From Candidatus Nitrospira nitrosa (GTDB lineage Bacteria > Nitrospirota > Nitrospiria > Nitrospirales > Nitrospiraceae), in assembly GCF_001458735.1 (NCBI RefSeq), contig NZ_CZQA01000010.1:62001-126000 (forward strand): a stretch of DNA of 64,000 nt, in the 5' to 3' direction. Below are positions 39,234-63,917 of the stretch, piece by piece. The notes beneath the pieces are model-generated. The model saw nothing but the letters and a program-made list of their open reading frames with translations, searched no databases and was not told where the DNA came from. The stretch's first letter is position 1, and each line of letters starts with the position of its first letter. The translations under genes and the position numbers were made by a program.

Positions 39234-40649
39234 TTAATGGCGTAGATCTTCAATACGCCCCTGCCCTCTGGCCAGATTCACCCGCGAGGCGTGCACGCGA
39301 AAGAGAGCATCGATCATGTTGTCTTTCGCCCGCACGAGGGAGAACAAGGCATTCGACAATTCCAATGTGTTCGAGCTCAAGGTTCGGATACGCTCGCGAG
39401 CCAGACTCACTTCAGTCATGGAAGCTTTAAGACCATCTTTCGCGATCCGCTGCTGTTCGAGTGAGGCCTTCAGAGTCACCAGCGCGTCCCGCACTTCCAT
39501 GCCGATCTGATTCTTCACCAGATCCAGTTTGTACGCCTCTTGATTATATTCGCTCACACTCTGCCCGATGCGGCCTTCCCGTTGACCTCCATCAAAAATC
39601 GGAATCGATAGCTGAACGCCGACGTTGTAGGTCCCGGCATTATTCTCGAATCGGTTTCCGATCAATCCGTAATTCCCTTCCGCAGACAGCGAGGGAAGGC
39701 GCTCCCCTTTGATCGAACGTATACCCAATTCCGCTGTCCTGATCCGTTGCACCTGAGCTTTGAGCTCCGGCCGCTCGGTTCCGGCAACCTCCAATGCACT
39801 GTGTAGTGTGGGAAGCGCTCCTTCATAGGCCTTCAGTGAATCCGTGAGTTGAAGCGCTAGATCGTATCCGATCCCGATGGCGTTCAGGAGCATGAACTTG
39901 GCCCGTTCGACTTCGCCCTTGGCCAATTCAAGGCGCTGCCGTTCATTCTCGAGTTGTGATTCCAACCGCGCCGCATCGAGGCCAGTGGCCATCCCCCCCA
40001 CTTGCCGGTTTTTCACGAATGCCACGAGATCTTCATAGAGAGCCACATTGGCCGTTCGCGCGTCGACCGTTTCCTGGTTGCGCAGCACCTCGAAGTAGGA
40101 CAGGGCCACCTTGGCCACAGTGTCGTTCTCCGTAGTGGCCGAATCCAGTTCGGCGACCTGTAAGGCGGACCGCGAGGCACGCCACCGTTCGATCAAACTC
40201 AGACTGAACAGGGACTGAGTAAAGGAGGCGCGGCCGTCGATGATATCGAACGGATCGGTCCTCACCGGTCTTCCGCCGATGGTCCCGAGGAAAAATGTTT
40301 GGTGGTTGTACTTACCAAAGGCGGCAACGTTCGGAAGAAGCGCACCCAACTGTGTCCGGGTTACCGCACGTGCGGCCTCAATTTTCTCTCGATATACACG
40401 AACGTTCGGACTCTTGCCGATGGCCAAATCAACGGCCTCCGCCAAGGACATCTTCAAAACAGGCGGGTTCTCCGACGGCATCGGAAGTGCTGCAACCTCT
40501 TGCGCGCATACAACCACACTGGCCGAGCATAGCCAAGCCAGGACGACAACACCGAGAAGAGCTCGACTAGGAATGATAAGCCCCCATGGTTGTCGACTCA
40601 ACGACTCCACCCCTCGGCCACTCACCCGAGATGGCGATCTGCCTCTCAT
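39234..40649 (-). CDS. TolC-family outer-membrane channel
   Basis: A 471-residue outer-membrane efflux protein. A signal peptide (A-L-L-G-V-V-V-L-A-W-L-C ending V-C-A-Q) precedes two OEP repeats rich in coiled coil: M-S-L-A-E-A-V-D-L-A-I near residue 70 and S-I-P-I-F-D-G-G-Q-R-E-G near 330 are typical. TolC trimers span the outer membrane and periplasm. It is the last gene of a six-gene minus-strand cluster: 13 bases after the adaptor stop, downstream of an ATPase and two HlyD-type proteins, so it probably forms the exit duct of that machine. Confidence 0.92.
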   Translation of the reverse strand: MRGRSPSRVSGRGVESLSRQPWGLIIPSRALLGVVVLAWLCSASVVVCAQEVAALPMPSENPPVLKMSLAEAVDLAIGKSPNVRVYREKIEAARAVTRTQLGALLPNVAAFGKYNHQTFFLGTIGGRPVRTDPFDIIDGRASFTQSLFSLSLIERWRASRSALQVAELDSATTENDTVAKVALSYFEVLRNQETVDARTANVALYEDLVAFVKNRQVGGMATGLDAARLESQLENERQRLELAKGEVERAKFMLLNAIGIGYDLALQLTDSLKAYEGALPTLHSALEVAGTERPELKAQVQRIRTAELGIRSIKGERLPSLSAEGNYGLIGNRFENNAGTYNVGVQLSIPIFDGGQREGRIGQSVSEYNQEAYKLDLVKNQIGMEVRDALVTLKASLEQQRIAKDGLKASMTEVSLARERIRTLSSNTLELSNALFSLVRAKDNMIDALFRVHASRVNLARGQGRIEDLRH

Positions 40650-40661
40650 CGAGTCACCCTT

Positions 40662-41534
40662 CTATTTCGCCGTCTGAAACTTCACCGTGCAGGCTAGCCC
40701 CGCCGGCAAAGCGTTATTGGGATTCGGCATTTCCAGGCGGACCCCGAACGTGCCGCTCGCGCTATCAACTACCCGGTTGACCACCGTCACATGTGCCTGA
40801 TAGGTGGTTGAGCCGCCGCCTTCCGGATGCACATCCGCCTTCATGCCGAGTGTGATTTTTCCCAGCAGGCTCAATGGCGCGAAGACTTCGATGCGCAGCG
40901 GATTGATCTGCGCCAACTTCAAAATTGGCATCTTGCCAGCCAACTCACCGGGAGACAATAGCCGGTCGACGACGACACCCGTCAGCGGGCTCGAGATGGT
41001 GCGGAGATTGAGCGCCGCCGTGGCCCGATGCCACTCTAGTTCGTCGATCCGTTTCTTTTCGGTGGCCTCCAGATACGCCGTTTCTACGAGTACCTTTTCC
41101 GTCTGGGCCTCATCGAATTCATGCTTGGCGATCGAGTTAGATTTGTACAAGTCCGTCGCCCGTTCAAGCTTCCTGGCACTGAAGGCCATTTTCGCCTGGA
41201 TGCTCTTGAGCGTGGCCTCGGCCTCGGCCTTTGCCTTAGCCAGCTCGACCGTGGCTCTTTCCACACTGGCCTCTAGTGTAACCACGGCCTGCCCTTTGGT
41301 CACCCAATCGCCCCGTTCGACATGCACCGTCTGGATGATGCCTTCGACCGGCGATCCAATGGACACTTCCGTATAGGGTTTCATGATGCAGGCCAGATTG
41401 TCGGAGGCGTCACTCGCTATAGGCCACCCACACCAACTGACGGCAAGACAAATTGATACCCATCTCACACATCGACAAAAACGCAACCCATTCCTGATAT
41501 ATCTGAGGAACGACTCTGAATCCATCCTCACCAT
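40662..41534 (-). CDS. Periplasmic adaptor (membrane-fusion) subunit
   Basis: A HlyD/AcrA-like adaptor of about 290 residues. G-S-P-V-E-G-I-I-Q-T-V-H-V-E-R-G-D-W-V is the first half of the biotinyl-lipoyl domain; a coiled-coil hairpin (about residues 80-165) and the second half S-S-P-L-T-G-V-V-V follow, then a beta-barrel. The frame opens at 41630 inside the SecA-like gene; I choose the ATG at 41534 (or 41525), which keeps a signal peptide. It links the inner-membrane components to the TolC-like channel. Confidence 0.87.
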   Translation of the reverse strand: MVRMDSESFLRYIRNGLRFCRCVRWVSICLAVSWCGWPIASDASDNLACIMKPYTEVSIGSPVEGIIQTVHVERGDWVTKGQAVVTLEASVERATVELAKAKAEAEATLKSIQAKMAFSARKLERATDLYKSNSIAKHEFDEAQTEKVLVETAYLEATEKKRIDELEWHRATAALNLRTISSPLTGVVVDRLLSPGELAGKMPILKLAQINPLRIEVFAPLSLLGKITLGMKADVHPEGGGSTTYQAHVTVVNRVVDSASGTFGVRLEMPNPNNALPAGLACTVKFQTAK

Positions 41535-41550
41535 CGTACATTCGCCCCCA

Positions 41551-43542
41551 TCATTCCACCCGTCCAGAAAACGCCAGCGCGGATTCGAGTTGATCTTCAT
41601 GCTGGAGCAAATCCCGGCGCATGCGGGCATGCAGCCGTTCCGCCGACCGCTGGGCCAGACGCACGAGCCATTGCGTTGGGCATCCTTGCAGGGGGGTCCC
41701 CGGTTTCAGGAGCAGTGAGGCAACCCACCGGATGACCCTTCCCCGAGAAGCGACCAACAGTTCATCATCCAGAGACATCACGGTTTCGTAACTGCCGGGA
41801 TCTCCTTGCCGACCAGTCCTCCCATAGAGCTGCCGATCGATACGTGTGGCTTCGTGCCGTTCGGTTGCGATCACATGCAACCCGCCGGCCTGAGCCACGG
41901 AACGAAGCACTTTGATATCGGTACCGCGCCCCGCCATGTTCGTCGCCACCGTGACTCGTCCGGACTCACCGGCTGCGGCAACGACCGCGGCCTCTTCCTG
42001 ATCTTGCCTCGCATTGAGCACTACATGCTCGATTTGTGCATTTGTGAGTTGCTGACTCAGGATCTCAGAGGCTTCCACGGACCTGGTTCCGACGAGAACA
42101 GGACGTCCTTGTTCCCGCAACGCTCGGATCCGCTCCACGACCGCCTCCCACTTCTGATCCGCCGTGGCGAACAGGCGCTCACCCATCCACCGGCGCTGAA
42201 GCGGGCGATTCGTCGGAACCGTGACGGTCGCAAGTCGATAGACGTTCCATAGTTCACCGGCTACCTCCTGCGCAGTCCCGGTCATTCCGGAAAGCCAGAG
42301 ATAGCGTCGAAACAATCGCTGATAGGTGATGCGCGCCAGCGGCCGGTTCATCGGCGTCACGGGGCACCCTTCCTTCAACTCGATCATTTGATGCAACCCA
42401 TGTTCCCATGACCGATCTCCCATGACACGTCCCGTATATTCATCGATGATCTGCACCTTTTCACCGCGCACAAGGTAGTGCACATCGCGCTGAAACAAAT
42501 GGAGCGCCGTCAACGCCTGCCGAACCAGCTCTTCCCTCCGCCTCGGTCCAGACCAGAGGCCTGTGAACCCTACCACCCGATTGGTGAGCGTGGTTCGACC
42601 ACTTGAAGTGAGCCTGATGGTTCGCTCCCGTCCGTCCAACGAGAAATCTTGCCCGCGCACCAGACCGCGAGCGAAATCCAGAGCCATCTGATAGATAATC
42701 TTCTCCGGCACCTCGCCTCCGGCCCCGGAAATGATCAAGGGCACCCGCGCTTCATCCACCAATACACTGTCGGCTTCATCGACGATGCCGAAACACAAGC
42801 CCCGTAAGACCAACTGCCGCACCCTCGCCTCATCACCGTAGAGCCGCTCCAGTTGAAGTTGGATGCGATTCGGCTGCCGCCCGACCACCAACCGGTCCCG
42901 GAGATAGTCGAACGCCAGTTCCTTATTGCAGCAGTACGTCACGTCACAACCGTACGCACTCCGTCGCGCAACCGGATCAAGCTCATGGATCACAGCACCG
43001 ACGCTGAGCCCGAGCCTCTCATAGAGAGGGGCCATCTCACGGGCGTCCCGTCCCGTCAGATAGTCGTTGACCGTGATCACATGGACCGGCACCCCTGCCA
43101 TCGCAATGGTTGCTGCGGCCAAGGTCGCGGTGAGCGTCTTGCCTTCTCCCGTCGCCATTTCCGCGATGCAGCCGTTCAGCAAGACCCAGCCACCGAGAAT
43201 TTGTACGTCGTAGTGCCGTTGACCAAGCGTCCGCTGCGCCACCTCCCGGATCAGGGCAAAGGACCGGCACACCCGCTCCTCCGAAAGACCATCCCGACGC
43301 AAGCTCTGACGCACCTGCATCGCTCGTTCAGTGAGTTGCTCGTCCGACAACCTTGAGAGCTCGTGGCCCTGCGCTGCCACCTGTTCGACAATCGTCGTGT
43401 TTCGGCACAATCGCACTCGGTGCCGACGCCGCAGTGAGCTGAACAGGCGAGCCCCTTGCCGGTCGAACCAACCCTCCTGAGAGACAGATCGTTCCGGATA
43501 GGCACTGTGTAATGCTCTGCGTTCGCGCGCCGGATCAAACAT
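41551..43542 (-). CDS. Shortened SecA-like ATPase
   Basis: A 663-residue SecA relative. NBD1 has D-V-Q-I-L-G-G and Walker A ATGEGKT (130-136), then DEAD at 255-258 with V-D-E-A-R-V-P-L-I-I-S-G. A preprotein cross-linking domain follows (D-F-S-L-D ... D-E-Y-T-G-R). NBD2 has T-N-M-A-G-R-G-T-D-I-K (534-544) and G-R-T-G-R-Q-G-D (574-581). After that only about 80 residues remain; canonical SecA has about 250-300 more, including most of the helical scaffold, the two-helix finger, the helical wing and the zinc C-tail. So the motor is intact but the parts that push substrate through SecY and bind SecB are missing. Its ATG overlaps the metalloprotease gene by eight bases; probable dedicated motor of the cluster. 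Confidence 0.9.
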   Translation of the reverse strand: MFDPARERRALHSAYPERSVSQEGWFDRQGARLFSSLRRRHRVRLCRNTTIVEQVAAQGHELSRLSDEQLTERAMQVRQSLRRDGLSEERVCRSFALIREVAQRTLGQRHYDVQILGGWVLLNGCIAEMATGEGKTLTATLAAATIAMAGVPVHVITVNDYLTGRDAREMAPLYERLGLSVGAVIHELDPVARRSAYGCDVTYCCNKELAFDYLRDRLVVGRQPNRIQLQLERLYGDEARVRQLVLRGLCFGIVDEADSVLVDEARVPLIISGAGGEVPEKIIYQMALDFARGLVRGQDFSLDGRERTIRLTSSGRTTLTNRVVGFTGLWSGPRRREELVRQALTALHLFQRDVHYLVRGEKVQIIDEYTGRVMGDRSWEHGLHQMIELKEGCPVTPMNRPLARITYQRLFRRYLWLSGMTGTAQEVAGELWNVYRLATVTVPTNRPLQRRWMGERLFATADQKWEAVVERIRALREQGRPVLVGTRSVEASEILSQQLTNAQIEHVVLNARQDQEEAAVVAAAGESGRVTVATNMAGRGTDIKVLRSVAQAGGLHVIATERHEATRIDRQLYGRTGRQGDPGSYETVMSLDDELLVASRGRVIRWVASLLLKPGTPLQGCPTQWLVRLAQRSAERLHARMRRDLLQHEDQLESALAFSGRVE

Positions 43543-45682
43543 TGAAACGCGCCAGGAACACCTGACGCCCCTGCCGATACCATTGAATCGCTAACGATTC
43601 GCGTCCGTGATCGAATCGGACGTAGACCCTCCCGCCGACGTTGAGAAGACCCTTCTGAAGCGGCAGCGCCAAATCGATCTGGAAGAGCTTTTTGAGCGCC
43701 GTGTGTCCTTTCGCATCGTGTGGATCGAGTGGCACCTGTCCTCCCCCCTCGCTGCCCAAGGCCGGACTCGGCAGCTCGTCGCTGGCTGCCGGTACCAGAC
43801 GTGAGATTGTCGCCCGCATCGGGTCAGCCAACCGCTCCGACAGTCGCACTTCCACGGCCTGGGTCTGATGCCGAATCAAGTCGATATCACCTTGATCAAC
43901 AATCGTGCGGACGGTCATCATCTTGAGGTCCACGATATGAGCTAGCACATCACCCCGCTTCACAAAGTGCCCGGGCAGATCCTCGGCCTTTGGAAGGATA
44001 AATGTCCCTGCCACCCGACTTCTGAGTTCAAGCTCCGACTGTCGCTCCTTCGCTCGAGCCAAACGCTCTTCGATGTACCGCTGCTCCTCTTCCAACATTT
44101 TTGCCTTCACCAGGTTGTCGACGAGTTGCTCTCGCACCCGCGATTTGATCTCGTGCAGCTGCCCCTCGATCATCTTCACATCTGCATGGACCGCAGGGTC
44201 TGAACAGACCACGAGCAGATCGCCAGGGCGAACCGTTGAACCAGGCACCGCTACCACCTGTTCAACAAACCCATCAATCTGCACCCGCACAAACGCCTCA
44301 TCCGGAATCCAGACGACGCCCTCCGCCCTGGTCCGGAACGGCACCGGAAGAAGCGTCAGCAGGACTATCACCCCGGCAACCAGCGCCAGACTGACGGCCA
44401 CGGCTCGCCCGCGCACCCGTCTGATCCTGGGACTGGTGAAGAGATAATGGATACCTTTCCCGAGGGGCAGCACAAACCAGGTGCCGGCCGTCAAGATCGC
44501 AAAGATGACACCCAGGACAAATAACTGATCCGTGAGATAGAGAAGAATGGCGACGACGACCACCACCCGATAGATGAAGGATGATACGGCATACGTGATG
44601 AACCAAGCCCGCTCGCCTTCGGTCGCATGAGGCACCGACGCATCGTCCCGCCCAAACAGGTATCGCTCACAGAGATATCCGAGATAGGTATGGGCACGCT
44701 GACGGAGATTCGGAATTTCCAGAAAGTCCGCCAGGATGTAATACCCATCAAATTTCAGTAAGGGATTGGCATTGAAGAGGACCGTGGAGATCCCGGCGAT
44801 AAAGATGGTGTTGTAGGCAAGGGTTCGAACGAGACCTGGTTCGACGCTGACCCACACATACACGGCCATCGCGGCCAGCACCAATTCCACGATCATCCCC
44901 GCGGCCCCGACGACGACACGCTGCCATTTATCGGCGAACGCAGACGAGGCGGAAGCCTCCACATAGGGCACCGGCGAGAGAACCAGGAGCATGAGCCCCA
45001 TGTCATGCACCTCGCCGCCGAACACCTTGACGGCAAAGGCATGGCCGAATTCATGCAGGGCTTTGATCACGGGAAAGAGCAGCCACAACAGCACGAGATT
45101 CTGCGGCGCGGTCACACGATCAATCAGATTCGCGCTGAGATCGGACCAGTGCGCGGCACCAAGTACAACAGCCGGGGCGACGATCAGACCCCAGAGGATA
45201 GCACCCCACCAGGAGAAGAAGGGGCGAACAAGCGGGGCGAATTGTTGCAGAAACCGTTCAGGATCAACGAGGGGAAACTGCCAGGCGAAGACACTCATCA
45301 ATCGCTTCTGCCACTTCCGCTGCCGCTGCTTGTCATGGCGAGCCAAGAGCTCAGCAGTGTCCGGAGGAATGTCGCACTGCAACAGGTCCGCAGCATGGAG
45401 CTGACTCAGCAGTTGGACCACATCCGGTTGAGTCGGCGCCTGGTCTCCAAGCTTGGTCGAGCAATGCTCCCATATGGCCTGGACTGAGCGCGTGCCGTCC
45501 ATCAAGCCGATGAAGGAGAACGCGGTCGGAGAAAACCGGTGGAATCGCTCGTTCGCCAGGTCCTGCACGACATACCAAATCTGTCCGCGATAGCGATGCC
45601 GATGCAGTTGGGCATGACCGCGAAGCCGCGGGGTCAGGGACGCCACACGGTACCAGGAGGGACTAAATAACGCTTCAGACAT
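43535..45682 (-). CDS. PqqD-like / M50 metalloprotease / HlyD fusion
   Basis: A 715-residue polytopic protein. Residues about 12-105 resemble a PqqD-like peptide-binding domain. A membrane peptidase of the M50/site-2 type follows: H-E-F-G-H (210-214) supplies zinc ligands and the glutamate, and N-P-L-L-K-F-D-G-Y-Y (306-315) the third ligand. More helices lead to a C-terminal adaptor (from about residue 455) with a coiled coil and biotinyl-lipoyl-like halves. The architecture matches the putative peptide zinc metalloprotease family linked to export and bacteriocin systems. Because motifs are intact it may cut or hold the cargo leader. It lies between a GAF-HlyD gene and the SecA-like gene. Confidence 0.88.
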   Translation of the reverse strand: MSEALFSPSWYRVASLTPRLRGHAQLHRHRYRGQIWYVVQDLANERFHRFSPTAFSFIGLMDGTRSVQAIWEHCSTKLGDQAPTQPDVVQLLSQLHAADLLQCDIPPDTAELLARHDKQRQRKWQKRLMSVFAWQFPLVDPERFLQQFAPLVRPFFSWWGAILWGLIVAPAVVLGAAHWSDLSANLIDRVTAPQNLVLLWLLFPVIKALHEFGHAFAVKVFGGEVHDMGLMLLVLSPVPYVEASASSAFADKWQRVVVGAAGMIVELVLAAMAVYVWVSVEPGLVRTLAYNTIFIAGISTVLFNANPLLKFDGYYILADFLEIPNLRQRAHTYLGYLCERYLFGRDDASVPHATEGERAWFITYAVSSFIYRVVVVVAILLYLTDQLFVLGVIFAILTAGTWFVLPLGKGIHYLFTSPRIRRVRGRAVAVSLALVAGVIVLLTLLPVPFRTRAEGVVWIPDEAFVRVQIDGFVEQVVAVPGSTVRPGDLLVVCSDPAVHADVKMIEGQLHEIKSRVREQLVDNLVKAKMLEEEQRYIEERLARAKERQSELELRSRVAGTFILPKAEDLPGHFVKRGDVLAHIVDLKMMTVRTIVDQGDIDLIRHQTQAVEVRLSERLADPMRATISRLVPAASDELPSPALGSEGGGQVPLDPHDAKGHTALKKLFQIDLALPLQKGLLNVGGRVYVRFDHGRESLAIQWYRQGRQVFLARFNV

Positions 45683-45780
45683 ACAGTTTCACATTTCCAG
45701 TTTCATGTCTCAAGTGACCGGCACGTTCCCCAACCTGAAACCAGAAACATGAAACACGAAACTCCTCCGTACCATGCGCG
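45683..45780. repeat. Imperfect inverted repeat between two export genes
   Basis: A 98-base spacer. AGTTTCACATTTCCAGTTTC-like bases on one side are partly complementary to GAAACATGAAACACGAAACT on the other. Related GTTTCATG-type bases occur near 51230, so it may be a dispersed intergenic repeat. Confidence 0.35.
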
Positions 45781-47688
45781 TTACGGCAACCATGTCCAGA
45801 CAGTCAGTCGGACCCAATCCACAACCTGATGCGTCCAGATCCAGATCAACGAACGCCGATCGATCTCGATCTTCCCTGCGCCTTCCATCGCCGGACGCAG
45901 CCGGTCATGCGGCTGATCGAGCGCCGCTTCCACACGGAAGAAGTTGCGCCCATCCTTTGCCGTCGACAGGGGCGTCATCTTGGCAACCGTAACCCCCACC
46001 GGGTCAGACGGAAAGGCCGCGAGCAACAGCTGTCCGTGCTGGCCAACCCGCACGTCCGCGATGTCACGCTCGTCGACTTCCAGCACCACCCGGTAGCTGT
46101 CGAGCGGGGCGATCTCGAACAGCACCTTGCCCTTTTCAACCGGTGAACCCAGTGACTGGCTCAGGTCGCCGCTGACGACGATCCCATCGAACGGCGCCAT
46201 CACGCGCGTGTGTGCAAGTTGATCATCGACGAGGGCCAGTTCCGACTCCACCTGATGCATCTGCGCGGTGGCAATCTCAACCTTGGCGGCCTCCCGCTCG
46301 GCCATCGCCTTGTGATACTCCTTGCGATACTCTTCAAGTTTGCTGAAAGACTTCACTCGTTCGAGCCGCAATTCTCGGTCATCCAGCGTACACAGAACAT
46401 CGCCGGAACGCACCACATCACCGGCGCGAAGAGGGGCCTCTCGAATATAACCGTTGAACGGCGCTGCAGCCGTCCGTTGAACGACCGGCTCCAAGACCGT
46501 CTTGGTCGAGACGCGATAGTCGCCCTCCGCCAGGAGACAGAAGAGCACGAGGCCCGCGAGAGTCGCGGTCGTCACCTTCACCGCCACATGACTGAGGCCC
46601 AGCAGGTCACAAACATAGCGAGTGAGCGCATCCCAAACTTTGGCCCCGATCCAACGATCGTCGCGACGATGGATCTCCAGCACCGGACCGATCAGTGCCG
46701 CGACCGACCGGCAGAGCACCACACTCTGGTCGTCGAACAGTCGGTCCGCCGGCCGTTCCAGCAAGAGGGCACCGACAACCTGCCCGTTCGCTTCCAGCGG
46801 CACGCACAGCAACGCTCCACTCCCATGGTCTTTGGCAAACGCCGCATGGGCCTGCATCACAACTCCGGCCCCTTCCGCCGGCGGGGGAAAAACGATCGCT
46901 TCGCGTTGATCAATCGCTTCATCCATGGCCTCGGCCAACCCACGAATCACATTGGTCTGTGCTTTGAATTCCGCACTGTGGGATACCGCAGCCACGCAAG
47001 CATGGCCGCGCTTCACGAAACCCAGCGTGACGCGATCACACGAGAGCGTGGTCGCCAGCGCATTCACCAAGGCCATGGCCGACGCGTAAAACCGGTCATG
47101 TCCAACAGCGGTAGCGACCAAATCCAGAGCAGCTTGGATCCGTTTACACGTGCCTTTTTCAAGAGCCACCGTTTCCCGCGCAAACAGCAGTTCGAGCCAG
47201 GCAGCCCCCCACTGCAGCCGCCGCATCAGCCCTTGCAGCTCCGACCCGGATCTCGATGCGACTTCCAGCACGACGGCGCCATGCAATGAACCGCCGACTT
47301 CGATGGGATAGCCGATTTCGCAGGAGCCGTTCAGTGTCCCATCCTCAGCCGACGCACCACACACAACAAGACGCCGCCGTTCTGCCAACGTCCGTTCAGC
47401 GGTATGGGTGAGCTGGGTGAGATGCTGGAGCCCCTCGGGCCAGATCGCGACGGGAGAGAAGGGACCACGATCAGCCGGACCGAAGAGCACCATGCCCGCC
47501 CGCACACTCTCGATCATGCGACATTGCAGCGCCAGCCAGCTCCGGCAAAAGGCGTCGACGGTTGTCGCTTTGGCAAAGGCGGTCCAGAGTGCATCATCCT
47601 GGGTTGCATCAGCCTGCGTCAGCGTCGAAACCAATGTCTCTGCTTCTTCATTGAACCGCGCACGCTGTGAGCTGACCTGTTCGTTCAT
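45781..47688 (-). CDS. GAF-GAF / HlyD fusion protein
   Basis: A 635-residue protein. The first 340 residues are two GAF-like sensor domains (about 40-170 and 185-335) with no signal peptide. A membrane helix follows at about 371-387. Then comes a HlyD-type adaptor: F-N-G-Y-I-R-E-A-P-L-R-A-G-D-V-V, a coiled coil of about 50 residues, M-A-P-F-D-G-I-V-V and a beta-barrel. The topology therefore puts the GAF domains in the cytoplasm and the adaptor in the periplasm. It lies directly downstream of the secreted repeat protein and upstream of the metalloprotease. GAF ligands are not identifiable; the fusion suggests ligand-gated or redox-gated export. Confidence 0.85.
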   Translation of the reverse strand: MNEQVSSQRARFNEEAETLVSTLTQADATQDDALWTAFAKATTVDAFCRSWLALQCRMIESVRAGMVLFGPADRGPFSPVAIWPEGLQHLTQLTHTAERTLAERRRLVVCGASAEDGTLNGSCEIGYPIEVGGSLHGAVVLEVASRSGSELQGLMRRLQWGAAWLELLFARETVALEKGTCKRIQAALDLVATAVGHDRFYASAMALVNALATTLSCDRVTLGFVKRGHACVAAVSHSAEFKAQTNVIRGLAEAMDEAIDQREAIVFPPPAEGAGVVMQAHAAFAKDHGSGALLCVPLEANGQVVGALLLERPADRLFDDQSVVLCRSVAALIGPVLEIHRRDDRWIGAKVWDALTRYVCDLLGLSHVAVKVTTATLAGLVLFCLLAEGDYRVSTKTVLEPVVQRTAAAPFNGYIREAPLRAGDVVRSGDVLCTLDDRELRLERVKSFSKLEEYRKEYHKAMAEREAAKVEIATAQMHQVESELALVDDQLAHTRVMAPFDGIVVSGDLSQSLGSPVEKGKVLFEIAPLDSYRVVLEVDERDIADVRVGQHGQLLLAAFPSDPVGVTVAKMTPLSTAKDGRNFFRVEAALDQPHDRLRPAMEGAGKIEIDRRSLIWIWTHQVVDWVRLTVWTWLP

Positions 47689-47770
47689 GAGGGCTGGTGT
47701 TTCTGGGAGAAGACCGACTACTTCTTGGCGGGTCTGTCCAAAGCTACGTATCGAATACCTAACTGGAAGA

Positions 47771-47800
47771 CGAGCACGAGTGATAGACCCCTCGTGCTCG
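47771..47800 (-). terminator. Hairpin between the secreted-protein gene and the export genes
   Basis: CGAGCACGAG (47771-47780) and CTCGTGCTCG (47791-47800) form a perfect 10-base stem around TGATAGACCC. It lies about 80 bases past the secreted-protein stop, without a U-tract. It could set a higher level of cargo transcript than machinery transcript. Confidence 0.5.
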
Positions 47801-47879
47801 CCTCACATTTATCACGTCACCCTCTCATGCCATATCCTTCACGAATGGCGAACCACGCTTCACACTTCATACCTTCCAA

Positions 47880-50663
47880 TTACGCCGTTACCGTGATCGT
47901 CACCGTCGCTAGGTTTGAAGTAGCCGTGCCATCGCTGGCTCGGTAGGTAAAGCTGTCCGTGCCAACGAAGCCGGTATTGGGCCGATAGGTGAACGTGCCA
48001 TTGCTGTTCAGTGTGAGTGTGCCATTGGTCGGACCACTCACGCGCACGGCAGTAAGGGGCTTGCCCTCTGGATCTCGGTCGTTGGTCAGAACATTGCTTT
48101 TAGTAAGTTTGACGAGTTCGAGATTGTCGTCTAAGCCGAGCCATCCATCCACGAAAAACAGTGTCCCGTTCACGTTGGTGAGACTACCCATGTATGGTCC
48201 ACTATCCATGACCTGCACGGTCCCGGCCACCGTTCCATCACTTTTCCACAGGTCGTTAGCAGCGGATCTGAAGTACGCTACCCCGTTGACATCCGTAATC
48301 AACGGGCTCCCGTTAGCCAATCCAGGCAACACTGCACCCAGCGCAAGAGTCCCTGCCGCAGTCCCGTTACTCTTCCACAGCTGCATGTTTCCGCCAGGCA
48401 CAAAACTACGGAAGAAGAGCTGGCTACCGATCTGTGTGAGATCTGTAAAAGTGGTGTTCCCTGCACCCGGCGTGATGTCTTTGATCAGGGCGGTTCCCGC
48501 TGTCGTCCCATCGCTTTTCCAGAGCTCCAGGCCGTTCGCCCATGTGAAGGCCGTAAAGTACAAGGTGCCGTTGACATTTGTGAGCTCACTGGGCGCGGAA
48601 CTGATGCCTTCCTGGGTGAACTCCTTCACCATTATCGTCCCGACAGTCGTACCGTCTGTCTTCCACAGCTTATTGTGATTACTGAAACCATTATCAGCGG
48701 TGAAGAAGAGGGTACTGTTGACCGCTTCGAGGTTACTGACATCAATCCAGCTATTTGGCGCGAATCCTCCGACGCGTTGAGTCCCTGTTGCATCGCTTTT
48801 CCAGAGGTTGGGTCCTGTCACCCCATCATTCGCGACAAAGAAAAGCGTGCCGTTGACGGCTGTCAACTCATCGATTCTCGAGTCAAGTGAACCAGCCCAG
48901 ATGTCTTTAACCATGACCGTTCCGGTCGCTGTCCCGTTGCTCTTCCAGAGCTCCCGTCCATTCACCCCATTATCGGCAGTGAAGAAGAGGGTGCCATTGA
49001 CATTGACAAGAAGATCATTGAGCAAAAACGAGATTCCATACCCAGTCCCCGGCTTGATGTCCTTGACCAGCACCGTGCCTGCCGCTGTCCCGTCACTCTT
49101 CCACAGCTCCCGACCAGTGGCTGCAGTTTCAGCCGTGAAGAACAACTTCCCATTCACATTCGTGAGTTGCTCAGGATTCGAACTGCCGGATCCAGCGACG
49201 ATGTCCTTGACCAGTACCGTACCTGTAGCAGTTCCGTCACTCCTCCAGAGCTCCCAGCCATTACTGCCGTTGTTGGCTGTGAAGTAGAGGATGCCATTGA
49301 CATTGACTAGTTCATTTCCGCCACGTGGGAAAGCACCGCTAGCCCCCGGCCGAATGTCCTTGACGAGGGTAGTAATCTCGGACAGGACGCCATTCTTCTT
49401 TACCGTGAACGCATCGTTGACCGCGACGGGGGGTTGATTGGTCAAGTTGGTGAGGAAGTGCACATCGCCGGTGGTGGTCCGTGTCTGCCCCGCAAGCAAA
49501 TAGGTGGTCGGAATCGTCGGCGTGATAAACCGGCTGTCGGCACTCAGTGTGCCCTGTATCTTGATGCTGCCGATCCCAGTGGGCGTGCCGGTGACAAACC
49601 GGTCATTCCCGTTCCCAAAGATCCCATCCACAGGATTGACGCTGACCCGCACGGTACTGTTCGTCATCGATCCAGTCAGGACAAACGTCTGCAGACGCCC
49701 TAAGCCATAGGTGTCGAGATTGGTACTCGTTCCTCCCAGTTTGCCGTCTGCGCCCAGCATGGTCCCGATGTATAGATTTGCTCCTGTCAGATTGCGAGCG
49801 GTGAAGGTGGTGATGGATTTGGCCGCGAGGCTCCCGCCGAGTTTATCGCCGATGGTCAGCGTGGTGATTGCACCATCGATCGCCAGCGCGCCGTTGACAT
49901 CCGTGGTCGCGCCCGTCAACGATGCGAGCGGCCCAAAGGCATGCACGTCATTCAACAACACCCGACCGTTGCCACCACTGGTCGTGATGGTCACAGCGGA
50001 GGTAGTGGTCGTGCCGGTCAATCGCAGATCCCAATTGGTCCCGTCCTTGAGGACGGTCCCCACTCCGGGCCCAGTCAATTTGAAGGTGACGGCAGTCCCA
50101 TCGGCATCACGCAGCGTGAGCACGGTGTTGCCTGCACGCCCCGGTACCGCGCCGAATTGCCACGCGACCGTAAACGAGGGACCCACCCCGGTATTGTTGG
50201 CTTCGCCGGTCGTGCCTTCCGCCACAACGTTAGTTGCATCCACCCGCGAGAGTAACTTATAGGTCCCGGCCGCCAAGGTATTTGGCATCGTCAGATTGAC
50301 CAACACGCTACGAGACTGCCCGGCACTAAGAGCTGCCGTGGTCGTCGTCCCGAGTAAGACATCCGACGTACTGAACGTACTATCGGTCGAGGCATAGACG
50401 CGGACTTGCGTGGACACGGTAGCCGCTGTGGTCCCTTGATTCTTCACTTGAACCGTCGCCGTTTCGACGTTGGTCGGCACGCTGGGATCCGCCAAGGTAT
50501 GGGCCGTCACCAGACCGGTCAGATCAGCTGCCAGTAAGAGGCGCGGCTCGAGTGGTTCCAGCATAAACTCAGAAGCTGGTCGTGATGACTCGGCTGGACG
50601 CGTCGCCCGCTTTAAGCCCGCTACCCACTTCCGGATTGTCGACCCCCTCATCACATCATGCAT
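47880..50663 (-). CDS. Large secreted repeat protein with LEPR-type N-terminus
   Basis: A 927-residue, Thr/Gly/Asn-rich extracellular protein. It has no classical signal peptide; instead L-E-P-L-E-P-R-L-L-L-A-A-D (35-47) follows a basic stretch, as in LEPR-XLL proteins. A CARDB-like domain follows (about 55-150), then a beta-helix-like region. P-P-V-A-V-N-D-A-F opens a cadherin-like Ig domain near 418. About eight E-L-W-K-S-D-G-T / G-T-V-L-V-K-D-I repeats (about 435-830) come next, and the same Ig domain then closes (N-V-L-T-N-D-R-D-P-E-G-K-P-L and D-S-F-T-Y-R-A-S-D-G). GGAG six bases before the ATG sets the start. It is the likely cargo of the downstream export genes. Confidence 0.88.
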   Translation of the reverse strand: MHDVMRGSTIRKWVAGLKRATRPAESSRPASEFMLEPLEPRLLLAADLTGLVTAHTLADPSVPTNVETATVQVKNQGTTAATVSTQVRVYASTDSTFSTSDVLLGTTTTAALSAGQSRSVLVNLTMPNTLAAGTYKLLSRVDATNVVAEGTTGEANNTGVGPSFTVAWQFGAVPGRAGNTVLTLRDADGTAVTFKLTGPGVGTVLKDGTNWDLRLTGTTTTSAVTITTSGGNGRVLLNDVHAFGPLASLTGATTDVNGALAIDGAITTLTIGDKLGGSLAAKSITTFTARNLTGANLYIGTMLGADGKLGGTSTNLDTYGLGRLQTFVLTGSMTNSTVRVSVNPVDGIFGNGNDRFVTGTPTGIGSIKIQGTLSADSRFITPTIPTTYLLAGQTRTTTGDVHFLTNLTNQPPVAVNDAFTVKKNGVLSEITTLVKDIRPGASGAFPRGGNELVNVNGILYFTANNGSNGWELWRSDGTATGTVLVKDIVAGSGSSNPEQLTNVNGKLFFTAETAATGRELWKSDGTAAGTVLVKDIKPGTGYGISFLLNDLLVNVNGTLFFTADNGVNGRELWKSNGTATGTVMVKDIWAGSLDSRIDELTAVNGTLFFVANDGVTGPNLWKSDATGTQRVGGFAPNSWIDVSNLEAVNSTLFFTADNGFSNHNKLWKTDGTTVGTIMVKEFTQEGISSAPSELTNVNGTLYFTAFTWANGLELWKSDGTTAGTALIKDITPGAGNTTFTDLTQIGSQLFFRSFVPGGNMQLWKSNGTAAGTLALGAVLPGLANGSPLITDVNGVAYFRSAANDLWKSDGTVAGTVQVMDSGPYMGSLTNVNGTLFFVDGWLGLDDNLELVKLTKSNVLTNDRDPEGKPLTAVRVSGPTNGTLTLNSNGTFTYRPNTGFVGTDSFTYRASDGTATSNLATVTITVTA

Positions 50664-51294: not shown

Positions 51295-52145
51295 GGTAAT
51301 TAGGGCGTTTCGTAACCATCTGGTAGGCTGGAGGCCGCATGGTTACCGGATCTCAGCGTGCTTTTGGGTGTACGGCCAACTTTTTGCGTGGTCGCAAATG
51401 TGTGTTCTGCGGTTCGTTTAAGACCAACCGGACGCAACGCGGCTATGTGAAGTGCCGGAAATGTAGCAAGCAGAAGAGCCTTGCAAAGCTTCGGCGAGAG
51501 ATTGCGATCCTGCAGGGGTTCTATCAGCAGGTGCCAGCCTATCGGTTGGCGCATGATCTGGGAGTCGACCCCAAAGTTATTAGTCGGGTCTACCAGAAGT
51601 TGCGGGTGGCATTATTTCATGTCGCCGAATTAGAAAGTATGGCCAGTAAACTCTCCGGCGAAATCGAGCTGGGCGAAGCCTATTTTGACGGACGATGCAA
51701 GGGCCGTCGCGGAAGAGGGGCAGCAGGTAAAAGCGTCGTCTTCGGGCTGCTGGAGCGTGATGGGCGGGTCTATACCAAGGTAGTCGAGCACGTGTCGGCG
51801 GACACCCTCATGGCCCACATTCAGACCACGACCCGCAAAGGTTCCGTCTACTACACGGATGCCTTTCGGGGCTATCAATCGTTGCGACGTTATGGCAAAC
51901 ATCACACCGTCAACCACAGCAAGAGTCTCGTGGATCGTCGAACCAAGAACCCTATCAACGGGATCGCAGGCTTCTGGTCGTTTGCGAAACATATTCTCTA
52001 CAATTATCGAGGCGTGTCCAAATATCATTTCCCGATGTATCTGGATGTATCTAAAGGAAATCGAGTATCGGTTTAACCACCGCAAAGAGAACCTCTTCAA
52101 GCTCTTCGTACGGTGCTTCTTTGGTTACGTTTCGCCCTAATTACC
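51295..52145 (+). mobile_element. IS1595-family insertion sequence
   Basis: An 851-base element. Its left end GGTAATTAGGGCG (51295-51307) is the exact complement of the right end CGCCCTAATTACC (52133-52145), with similarity continuing inward. It encodes one transposase that is now frameshifted. Flanked by near-identical eight-base duplications. Confidence 0.88.
51339..52140 (+). pseudogene. IS1595-family transposase, frameshifted
   Basis: A zinc-ribbon (C-V-F-C ... C-R-K-C) and a DDE-type core: I-E-L-G-E-A-Y-F, V-Y-Y-T-D-A-F-R and N-H-S-K-S-L-V-D, then N-P-I-N-G-I. Two lesions are seen. GATGTATCTG/GATGTATCTA at 52034-52053 is a 10-base tandem duplication; removing one copy restores Y-L-K-E-I-E-Y-R-F-N-H-R and a natural stop at 52138-52140. 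In addition, relatives usually have E-L-D-E-S-Y where this has E-L-G-E-A-Y, so the first catalytic Asp appears lost. With both changes it is almost surely inactive. Confidence 0.88.
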
Positions 52146-60239: not shown

Positions 60240-63200
60240 ATGTCGTCATCTACAACCGGCAAGCCTAATCGGCTTATCCACGAAACCAGCCCCTACCTGC
60301 TGCAACATGCCCATAACCCCGTTAACTGGTATCCCTGGGGACCGGAAGCCCTGAAGGCAGCCAAGGATCAGAACCGTCCCATCCTCTTGTCCATCGGGTA
60401 TTCCGCCTGCCACTGGTGCCATGTCATGGAGCGGGAATCGTTCGAGAACGAGGCCATTGCCGAACTCATGAATCGCTGGTTCGTCTGTATCAAGGTCGAT
60501 CGAGAAGAACGCCCTGACCTGGACGAGATCTACATGGCCGCCACCGTCACGATGAATCATGGTCAGGGGGGGTGGCCGATGACGGTGTTTCTAACGCCGG
60601 AGCAGGAACCCTTCTTTGCCGGAACGTACTTCCCGCCTGAAGACCGCTGGGGCCGGCCAGGTTTCGGCTCCGTCCTCAAGAAGATTGCCGACTATTGGGA
60701 CACACGATCCTCGGACGTCCGCGATCAAGCCAAGGAGCTGACTGCGCAATTACAAGGCACGAAGCAGCCCCCCTCTCCGATCTCCATCAGCGAATCGGTA
60801 CTGACCGAAGCCGTCTCTCAATTCAAGGACGACTTCGACGAAACCCATGGTGGATTCGGTACGGCGCCGAAGTTTCCCCCGGCGATGGGCTTGTCGTTCT
60901 TATTGAGGAGTCACCGGCGATCGGGAGACTCACAGACCCTCACCATGGTGACCAAGACGCTCGACATGATGGCCGCAGGCGGCATCTACGACCATATCGG
61001 CGGCGGATTCGCGCGCTACTCGACGGATGCCCGATGGCTGGTCCCGCATTTCGAAAAGATGCTCTATGACAACGCGCTGCTGGCCCGCGTGTATGTTGAG
61101 GCCTATCAAGTCACCAAGGCACCGCTCTATCGCCATGTCGCAACCGATGTGCTCAACTATATCTGCCGCGAGATGACCGGTCCCGAAGGAGGGTTCTACT
61201 CCTCGACCGATGCCGACTCGGAAGGTGTTGAAGGCAAGTTCTTTGTTTGGACACCGACTCAGGTCCAGGAAGTCCTCCAAAACGACGAAGACACTCGGCG
61301 ATTTTGTGGGCTGTATGACATCACGGAGGCAGGCAATTGGGAACACACGAATATTCCCAATCGGCTGCGACCAATCGACGACATCGCCAGGCAGCTGAAT
61401 CTGACCACCGACGAATTGCTGGACAGCGCATCCCGTGTGAAGCCCCTGCTGTATGAAGCGAGACGAAAGCGTGTCCCCCCTGGACTTGATGACAAGATCA
61501 TCACCGCCTGGAACGGTATGATGCTCTCGGCCATGGCCGAAGCCGCACGCGTCTTTGACGACGCCCGATACCTCCAGCATGCCTCGAGGACGGCCGATTA
61601 CTTGTTGCGATACCATGCCAAACCCGATGGACGCTTATTCCGCACCTCACGGGCCGGTCGCGCGCATCTCGATGCCTATCTGGAAGACTATGCCTACTTG
61701 GCAGAAGGGTTCGTCGATCTCTATGAAGCCGGCGCCGCTGAATCGTATCTCCATGCCGCCGCACGATTGGCCGACCATCTGATCTCAGACTTTGAGGATA
61801 AGGAGCAGGGCGGATTTTTCACTACGGCACAACAACATGAAGCACTTATCTTGCGTCACCGCGAAGGCACTGACGGGGCCACACCGAGCGCCAATGCTGT
61901 AGCCGCGTCAGCCCTTGCTCGGCTGTCCTTCCACTGTGATCGAGATGACTGGCGCCGTGCGGCGACGACTGCGGTACGTGCCTACGGCCGACAGGTCATT
62001 CGCTATCCTCGAGCGTTTGCCAAGAGTCTTGCGGTTGTGGACTTTTTGACCGAAGGCCCGGTGGAGCTGGCACTCATCGGGGATCCCGCGCAGAACACGC
62101 TGGGTTCGCTTCGCCAAGCCGTAGCCCAATGCTATCTGCCCAATCGCATTATCGCGACAGGCTCGCCGTTGACCCCGTCGTCTCTTCCTCTCTTGAAGGA
62201 CAGACCAGCCGTTTCCGGTCTGCCCACCCTTTACATTTGTCGGGATTATACCTGTCGACAGCCGATCACAGATCCTCGCACCGTTGCGCAGGCCTTACAG
62301 ACTGAGCAGTCCAGCTCCTTGGATCTGCAGAGTGAGCCAAGACTGCTGAGCGGCGCGTTGCTGTCTGGACAGGCAACCGCGCAGGGGACGGCGACCTACG
62401 CATCGCGCATGCTGACGCGCAGCGGACAGGCTGGCCTGGCACAGGGATTGACGCTGCTTGGTACGAGCGGGCTCACCACCACACGCATCGGATTCGGCAC
62501 CTATCGCGTCGACACCCAGCATGCCGAACATCGGTCTGCGCTCACACAGGCCATACGAACGTCGTGCAACCTCATCGACACCTCTACGAACTACACGGAC
62601 GGCGACAGTGAACGATTGGTCGGATCCGTACTGCATGAACTTGCAGCGTCCGGTGAGATTCGACGAGATGAACTCATCATCGTGTCTAAAATCGGCTACA
62701 TCCAGGGTCAGAATCTCGCACTCGCCGAGGCCAGAGAACGATCCGGCCGGGCCTATCCTGAACTGGTGAAATACGGTGACGGGATTTGGCATTGCATGCA
62801 TCCCGAATTCTTGGCGGATCAACTGGCGTTGTCATTGGATCGCCTTGGGCTCACGACGCTGGACATCTGTCTGCTTCATAATCCTGAATATTTCCTCTTG
62901 GACGCTCGACATCGCGGCACACCAGATTCGGATGGGCTGCGCACGGATTTCTACGATCGTCTTCAGCGAGCCTTTGCCTATTTTGAAGCACAAGTGGCGG
63001 CTGGACGCCTTCAATATTATGGTGTATCCTCCAACACGGTCGCATCATCTGCCGATGACCCAGAAGGGACATCCCTCTCGCGCATGGTCCATGCAGCTGA
63101 ACAAGCAGCACGATCGGTCGGGGCTTCCACTCATCATTTTCAGGTTCTGCAGTGCCCGATGAATCTCTTTGAATCAGGCCCTGCCACAAGCGCTAATACG

Positions 63201-63917
63201 GGCCCATCAAACGCGCAGACGGTTCTTGACTATGCACGCGAGCACCACATCGCCGTGCTGGTGAATCGGCCGCTCAATGCCATGGTCGCACGCAACACAA
63301 TGATACGGCTCGCGGACCTCCCGGTCGAAGACGCGTCAATCGACATTGAGCGACAGCTCGGTATCGTCGACGTACTTGAACAGGAATACCGAACCGCTCT
63401 TGCCCCGAATATCCAACAGGCAGGCGCCGAGACAAGTCCAAACGACTATTTCGTCTGGTCCGGAGAACTACGTCGCATCCAACCACAGATCCAGGGGCTC
63501 GAGCATTGGGAACAGATTGAGCACCATATGGTTGCGCCGCGCGTCAATCAGGTCCTCCAGCTGCTGTCTCGCCAGCTCTCTGGAACAACGGCTGAACAGT
63601 GGGAGCACTGGCGGCAACGATACATTCCTGAACTCCTGGCTCTTCTGCGTGCATTCAGGCACGAGGCCACGCTGCGGAGTCGAGTCCAAACCGAACGGAT
63701 TGCACGCACGATCAGGCCACTCTTGCCCGACACTCACCGTACCGCCGCTCTCTCTCAGCAGATGTGCTGGATCCTCAGCAGCACACCAGGAATTACTTGT
63801 GTCTTAAACGGCATGCGAACACCGAAGTATGTTGAGGATTCATTAGCCGTCTTGAACTGGACGCCGATCAGCGAGACCCGGCCGATCTATGCAGAAGCCC
63901 AGTCACTCCTTCAGTGA
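60240..63917 (+). CDS. DUF255 (YyaL/SPATA20-type) fused to aldo/keto reductase
   Basis: A 1225-residue two-part protein. The N-terminal half (about 1-690) is the DUF255 family: [17 protein letters not shown] with the thioredoxin-like CxxC, D-R-E-E-R-P-D and G-G-W-P-M-T-V-F, then a six-hairpin glycosidase-like part. The C-terminal half from about 740 is an aldo/keto reductase: [15 protein letters not shown], a D-T-S-x-N-Y segment with the catalytic tyrosine, S-K-I-G-Y and H-N-P-E-Y. The linker around 690-740 is Ser/Gln-rich. DUF255 usually stands alone, so the fusion suggests linked redox steps. Start without a strong ribosome site. Confidence 0.88.

Follow-up and report, generated by a model that had tools for sequence, protein, structure and literature searches.

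We analyzed a stretch of 64,000 nucleotides of the Candidatus Nitrospira nitrosa genome (hereafter the window), in which six genes on the minus strand form an operon spanning 39234-50663(-). In order, these encode a LEPR-XLL protein of 927 aa (47880-50663, minus strand), a GAF-domain and HlyD membrane-fusion protein (GAF-HlyD, 635 aa; 45781-47688, minus strand) with one predicted transmembrane segment near residue 368, a fusion of a PqqD/RRE-like, an M50 (site-2-protease-like) and a HlyD part (M50-HlyD, 715 aa; 43535-45682, minus strand), a short SecA-like ATPase (663 aa; 41551-43542, minus strand), a periplasmic adaptor of the RND_mfp/HlyD type (40662-41630, minus strand), and a TolC-family outer-membrane channel (471 aa; 39234-40649, minus strand). 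The adaptor scores 119.7 bits against TIGR01730 (cut-off 94.9), and the channel matches PF02321 (E 1.1e-46) and, under the curated cut-off, TIGR01844 (E 1.6e-43). The M50-HlyD gene overlaps the start of the short SecA gene by 8 bases, and fewer than 200 bases separate the remaining neighbors, provided that the adaptor starts at an ATG near 41534, which its sequence makes likely. An initial annotation of this DNA had noted HlyD and TolC neighbors of the SecA gene, and the surrounding membrane-fusion, M50, and TolC genes confirm this. None of the six operon proteins is an ABC transporter, and the operon encodes no ATPase other than the short SecA.

The core order GAF-HlyD, M50-HlyD, short SecA, adaptor is repeated in stretches from genomes of the same family and in plasmid loci (the one from Thalassospira lacks the short SecA, and one record is unannotated), as well as in most of 80 loci from other genomes, several of which are cut by contig ends. 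Many loci carry a DUF3467 gene of about 110 aa just upstream of GAF-HlyD (as at L063, 11744-12064, and L066, 11863-12144), which is absent from the window genome. Neither an HMM search nor a comparison of profiles (hhalign probability 0.1) supported the idea that its product is a SecB-like chaperone.

The short SecA consists of NBD1, the cross-linking domain, NBD2, and the first scaffold helix only. Pfam searches returned SecA_DEAD (E 2.6e-100), P-loop_SecA (E 3.7e-55, with a best stretch covering only profile positions 1-99 of 205), and the preprotein cross-linking domain (E 2.7e-25), and no match to SecA_SW (wing and scaffold) or SEC-C, both of which are present in the genome's other SecA. 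The GEGKT, DEADS, GRGTDI, and GRxGRQG motifs are (near-)invariant in 55 homologs. The motor motifs and the cross-linking domain are intact, as first described. The protein scores 596.8 against TIGR00963, the SecA equivalog model (cut-off 800), and lies far under every cut-off of the curated SecA2 models TIGR04397, TIGR03714, TIGR04221, and NF012136. Two further features were observed: a family-specific N-terminal YPER motif at residues 15-18 (window 43489-43500; Y in 46, E in 49, and R in 48 of the 55 homologs), and a loop of about 20 residues inserted before the DEAD motif (residues 221-245, about 42808-42882), where model confidence is low.

Comparisons with solved structures locate the truncation. 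In phmmer searches against the PDB, the protein matches SecA and SecA2 chains to about residue 650 of Thermotoga maritima SecA and no further. Its predicted structure (pLDDT 86.4, pTM 0.85, from a 55-sequence alignment) aligns with chain 6itc_A, the Bacillus subtilis SecA of a substrate-engaged SecA-SecY complex, over 595 positions (chain residues 14-612; Z 41.9, rmsd 3.1). The final helix, residues 621-659, aligns as far as residue 612 of B. subtilis SecA and corresponds to the first helix of the scaffold. In E. coli SecA, residues 611-670 and 755-835 make up the scaffold and residues 671-754 the wing (PMC5603524); by these limits, the short SecA lacks the wing, the second scaffold segment with its finger, and the tail. 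The earlier description of a protein that has lost the two-helix finger, wing, and scaffold therefore holds for the finger and the wing, to which the C-terminal tail is to be added, but not for the whole scaffold, the first helix of which is retained.

Two known types of SecA resemble this protein. Like accessory SecA2 of Gram-positive bacteria, which is a paralog serving a subset of substrates, it is a second SecA, and SecA2 crystal structures are among its closest folds (6sxh, Z 43.2). However, solved SecA2 chains are longer (778-786 residues, compared with 663), and the short SecA lies in a HlyD/TolC setting in which no accessory SecY was found, unlike accessory SecA2 systems. SecA-N68, an engineered truncation of E. 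coli SecA (5k9t, Z 41.2), is cut at a similar point, but is a laboratory fragment inactive in translocation, whereas the short SecA is a natural protein that ends on its own conserved motif.

This end is a fixed property of the family. From GRTGRQG to the C-terminus there are 90 residues in the window protein, near the roughly 80 first counted after G-R-T-G-R-Q-G-D, and 81-91 from GRxGRQG in 52 of the 55 homologs, the motif pattern having missed the other three. All 55, drawn from Nitrospirota, Pseudomonadota, Thermodesulfobacteriota, Myxococcota, Rokubacteria, and others, carry a LAFSG-type pattern within their last 14 residues, with the consensus end LAFSGxxE; in the window protein this is LAFSGRVE (residues 656-663; 41554-41577, minus strand). 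Within the window genome's family (147 genomes), about 24 genomes have an ortholog, nearly all of which align to the last residue. In a tree of the 55 short SecAs and 21 housekeeping SecAs, from which the sequences of Kamneva et al (2015) were left out, all short SecAs lie on one side of a single branch (SH-aLRT 100), which fits a single origin followed by spread across phyla.

The shared end, together with the lack of any wing or finger remnant in all frames of the window (tblastn with the absent part taken from the genome's other SecA, best E 0.57), rules out a pseudogene or a sequencing frameshift. A full-length SecA, a 964-aa open frame, is encoded elsewhere in the genome (G000:C1:1593536-1594720). 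The short SecA is thus not the sole SecA, which fits the expectation of the initial annotation that it should not replace the housekeeping protein. The same-family orthologs likewise occur mostly in genomes that also have a full-length SecA, and a canonical SecA is present in 46 of 49 other genomes having the locus. A search of the window genome for a dedicated second SecY found one SecY only. In another genome of the genus (G114), two copies of the short-SecA operon lie on different contigs (L045 and L046), with short SecAs that share 81% and 79% identity with that of the window.

Loci of this type were described by Kamneva, Poudel and Ward (2015; PMC4452313), who reported secondary SecA_DEAD proteins without SecA_SW beside GAF-HlyD, M50, and HlyD genes, sometimes with an OEP gene and with no ABC transporter, in hosts that include Nitrospirae and Methylobacterium extorquens AM1 (genes META1p2399-2402). 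These authors proposed that the SecA is a co-opted ATPase and that the M50 protein may form a pore, and they described the module's biological role as completely unknown (PMC4452313). The window locus shares the SecA_DEAD protein without SecA_SW, the GAF-HlyD, M50, and HlyD neighbors, and the canonical SecA encoded elsewhere, and is a member of this module type. The short SecA itself is therefore not new, and the notion of a re-purposed motor, which also underlay the initial annotation, was published with the locus in 2015. It agrees well with a stable family of single origin in this operon type, and the position among membrane-fusion, M50, and TolC genes fits a motor that does not replace SecA. 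A term search found no mention of LEPR in the main text of the 2015 paper (PMC4452313), and in the open-access literature, where absence is a weak indication, our searches turned up neither subsequent work on the module nor any paper connecting LEPR-XLL with SecA. New relative to the published locus are the pairing with LEPR-XLL proteins, the conserved C-terminal end, the candidate RRE-like domain, and sister loci without a short SecA.

The LEPR-XLL protein, which went unmentioned in the initial annotation, is the most informative neighbor. It is encoded by the first gene of the operon, combines ELWxxDGT repeats with tandem-95 features (TIGR04534, E 2.4e-119), and is a candidate exported substrate. 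The NCBIfam LEPR-XLL model NF012209 scores 25.1 bits (cut-off 17) at its N-terminus, where the motif (..MLEPLEPRLLLAADL..) is encoded at 50508-50567 (minus strand). In the closest relative (G041; L043, 13476-18052), two tandem relatives of this protein, of 600 and 927 aa, are encoded upstream of the operon, and only the 927-aa protein exceeds the LEPR-XLL cut-off.

LEPR-XLL proteins and the operon are linked in many phyla, both at the level of genomes and at that of neighboring genes. In the window's family, a LEPR-XLL match of at least 20 bits, a line chosen after two score classes had appeared, is present in 19 of 24 genomes with the short SecA compared with 8 of 123 without it (Fisher 2e-13, kinship ignored). 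Among 49 genomes of other phyla that were picked solely by M50-HlyD, 44 have a LEPR-XLL protein over the cut-off, compared with one of 14 controls; five have no LEPR match, one of which carries a LEAR variant adjoining the operon. In 34 of these 49 genomes, a LEPR frame lies at most 15 kb from the operon, mostly 1.4-5 kb away, which is about the length of the intervening GAF-HlyD gene, and 32 of 38 LEPR-operon pairs are on the same strand. The remaining LEPR matches are on other contigs, in assemblies many of which are fragmented. Where a genome has more than one operon, each often has its own LEPR gene (e.g. G164, G165, and G184), annotated plasmids carry LEPR-XLL or other very large proteins directly upstream of the operon, and two genomes of the Nitrospira family have the LEPR gene within it (L057, 10849-12996; L059, 6627-8699). 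The LEPR frames near operons have a median length of 7,040 aa and a maximum of 15,161 aa. This cross-phylum pairing with LEPR-tagged giants suggests that the operon, and with it the short SecA, probably helps to secrete them.

Besides protein secretion, HlyD and TolC proteins serve drug and metal efflux, and GAF domains suggest sensing of small ligands. The operon could accordingly export something else, such as small molecules, while LEPR-XLL proteins leave the cell by another route and the two are merely co-inherited. We regard this as very improbable, since the pairing holds in several phyla, for individual operon copies, and in a sample taken without selection: among 150 genomes of the alphaproteobacterial family of a Bradyrhizobium, seven have LEPR, seven have M50-HlyD, and six have both (Fisher 3e-9).

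A candidate for the component that reads the LEPR leader is M50-HlyD. Its residues 9-107 (45362-45658, minus strand) form, according to the predicted model and a weak sequence match, a PqqD-type winged-helix domain that may bind leaders. PF05402 (PqqD) scores 21.2 here, under its cut-off of 23.4, and the model resembles the leader-bound RRE structures 5v1v (Z 10.2, rmsd 3.0, 87 aligned) and 5v1u (Z 10.1); other fold matches tie with these over the domain, so that the fold alone is no proof of leader binding. The M50 part is a helical region in the predicted model, scores 26.7 against PF02163 (just below the cut-off of 27.2), and contains an HExGH zinc-protease motif (residues 210-214; 45041-45055, minus strand) and a second motif, NPLL.FD (about 44747-44767, minus strand). 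Residues H210, E211, H214, N306, P307, and D312 are invariant in 55 homologs. The C-terminal part resembles MacA/MexA-type adaptors (Z about 15 in a fold search of the model). The fold matches listed cover the HlyD and PqqD parts only and include no M50 structure, which makes them uninformative on the membrane part. A daptide protease model matches the fusion protein with E 1.1e-49, below its cut-off, in keeping with the RRE (PqqD-like) domains and M50 proteases of peptide maturation, of which the daptide HExxH protease is an example. Those systems act on small peptides, whereas the version in the window is fused to HlyD and paired with very large proteins.

Loci without a short SecA show which of these associations is the closest. 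In six loci of same-family genomes (L171-L174, L176, and L190), a class of sister loci often seen where the short SecA is absent, genes for proteins starting with LEPRLMFDAAA or LEQRLMFDAAA have HlyD genes and a divergent M50-HlyD (26-28% identity) as neighbors. The stretches read at these loci contain no short SecA, and the genome of L190 has short SecA operons elsewhere; no obvious motor is encoded there, and a histidine kinase, a beta-propeller protein, and a flavoprotein lie downstream. The Thalassospira marina plasmid NZ_CP024200 (L068, 11681-18487) carries genes for LEPR-XLL, DUF3467, HlyD, M50-HlyD, adaptor, and TolC in the usual order with no short SecA at the locus, and the best matches listed for the short SecA do not include this plasmid. 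L149 likewise has M50-HlyD and HlyD genes and no short SecA. The link of LEPR to M50-HlyD is hence tighter than that to SecA: of all operon members, M50-HlyD has the closest tie to LEPR, the two form the constant pair, and the short SecA is limited to one branch, in which it may be the motor or an added aid.

Such loci also lend some weight to a different role for the short SecA, as a regulator or quality-control unfoldase, with the energy for export coming from folding outside the cell, the proton-motive force, or another ATPase. Given that its motor motifs are (near-)invariant in 55 homologs and that the window operon encodes no further ATPase, we consider such a role rather unlikely. The interpretation that we favor, and hold to be reasonably probable, is that the operon is a dedicated exporter of LEPR-XLL-tagged proteins that does without an ABC transporter and has the short SecA as its ATP-driven motor. 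Its membrane-fusion proteins and TolC channel are common to type I secretion systems (HlyB-HlyD-TolC), and a one-step export, as in type I secretion, is the likely outcome. It differs from them in having a SecA-type ATPase and an M50 fusion instead of the HlyB-type ABC transporter, and in a candidate signal that is N-terminal, whereas type I signals are C-terminal.

For leader binding, cleavage, the export route, and the role and direction of the motor, we infer the following course. The PqqD/RRE-like domain of M50-HlyD would recognize the LEPR leader, and the clamp of the short SecA would grip the unfolded chain and feed it forward, while the LAFSGxxE end would dock onto a partner. The M50 part could be the site of passage through the inner membrane, the protease that removes the leader, or both, and the three HlyD/MFP parts and TolC would take the chain across the periplasm and then the outer membrane. 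The strongest form of this proposal, a leader-dependent system distinct from type I secretion in which the short SecA drives LEPR proteins of up to about 15,000 residues via an M50-HlyD complex of the inner membrane, bypassing SecYEG, and out through TolC, is put forward tentatively, with somewhat less than even chances. Against the favored interpretation count the loci that have no short SecA, the five genomes in which LEPR gave no match, and the facts that SecA alone forms no pore and that the genome showed no second SecY.

With one SecY found in the genome, the short SecA may use a SecY-independent route or help at SecYEG. In the latter case, the substrates would cross the inner membrane through the housekeeping SecYEG, the short SecA would hold, unfold, or deliver them, and the HlyD and TolC proteins would serve later steps only. 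SecA-N68, with its similar truncation, does not translocate, yet it still associates with SecYEG and signal peptides and hydrolyzes ATP constitutively (PMC5603524), so that the short SecA may still act at SecYEG; it also keeps the cross-linking domain and first scaffold helix, which lie near SecY contact sites (PMC6599042), and the genome showed a single SecY. The sampled N-termini of LEPR proteins, on the other hand, have no strongly hydrophobic core: their 12-residue Kyte-Doolittle maxima are 0.4-1.8, compared with 2.1-2.7 for three ordinary secreted proteins of the window, a weak argument given that the window's own adaptor reaches only 1.7. We judge this SecYEG-dependent route possible and clearly the less probable one. 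In the working SecA-SecY complex, clamp and finger are thought to cooperate (PMC6599042). A natural SecA with a clamp and no finger would either drive chains differently, via a partner, or hold and deliver them.

In textbooks, SecA is the motor that serves SecY, and the two-helix finger figures in present models of how it works. A natural SecA that is widespread, lacks the finger, and belongs to a particular export operon would test which SecA parts are required for moving a chain. The LEPR-XLL link also offers a substrate for a module that has lacked an assigned role since 2015, and a possible function for LEPR-XLL, an N-terminal tag that has been named without being explained and that occurs on some of the longest proteins of bacteria. 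Should the leader-dependent route apply, the LEPR leader would represent a novel type of export signal, recognized by an RRE-like domain as in peptide-maturation enzymes.

Two other genes of the window deserve mention. An IS1595-type transposase gene lies directly upstream of the LEPR-XLL gene (51339-52076, plus strand), and a 1225-aa frame at 60240-63917 (plus strand) joins a DsbH/DUF255 thioredoxin-like protein to an aldo/keto reductase in a putative fusion.
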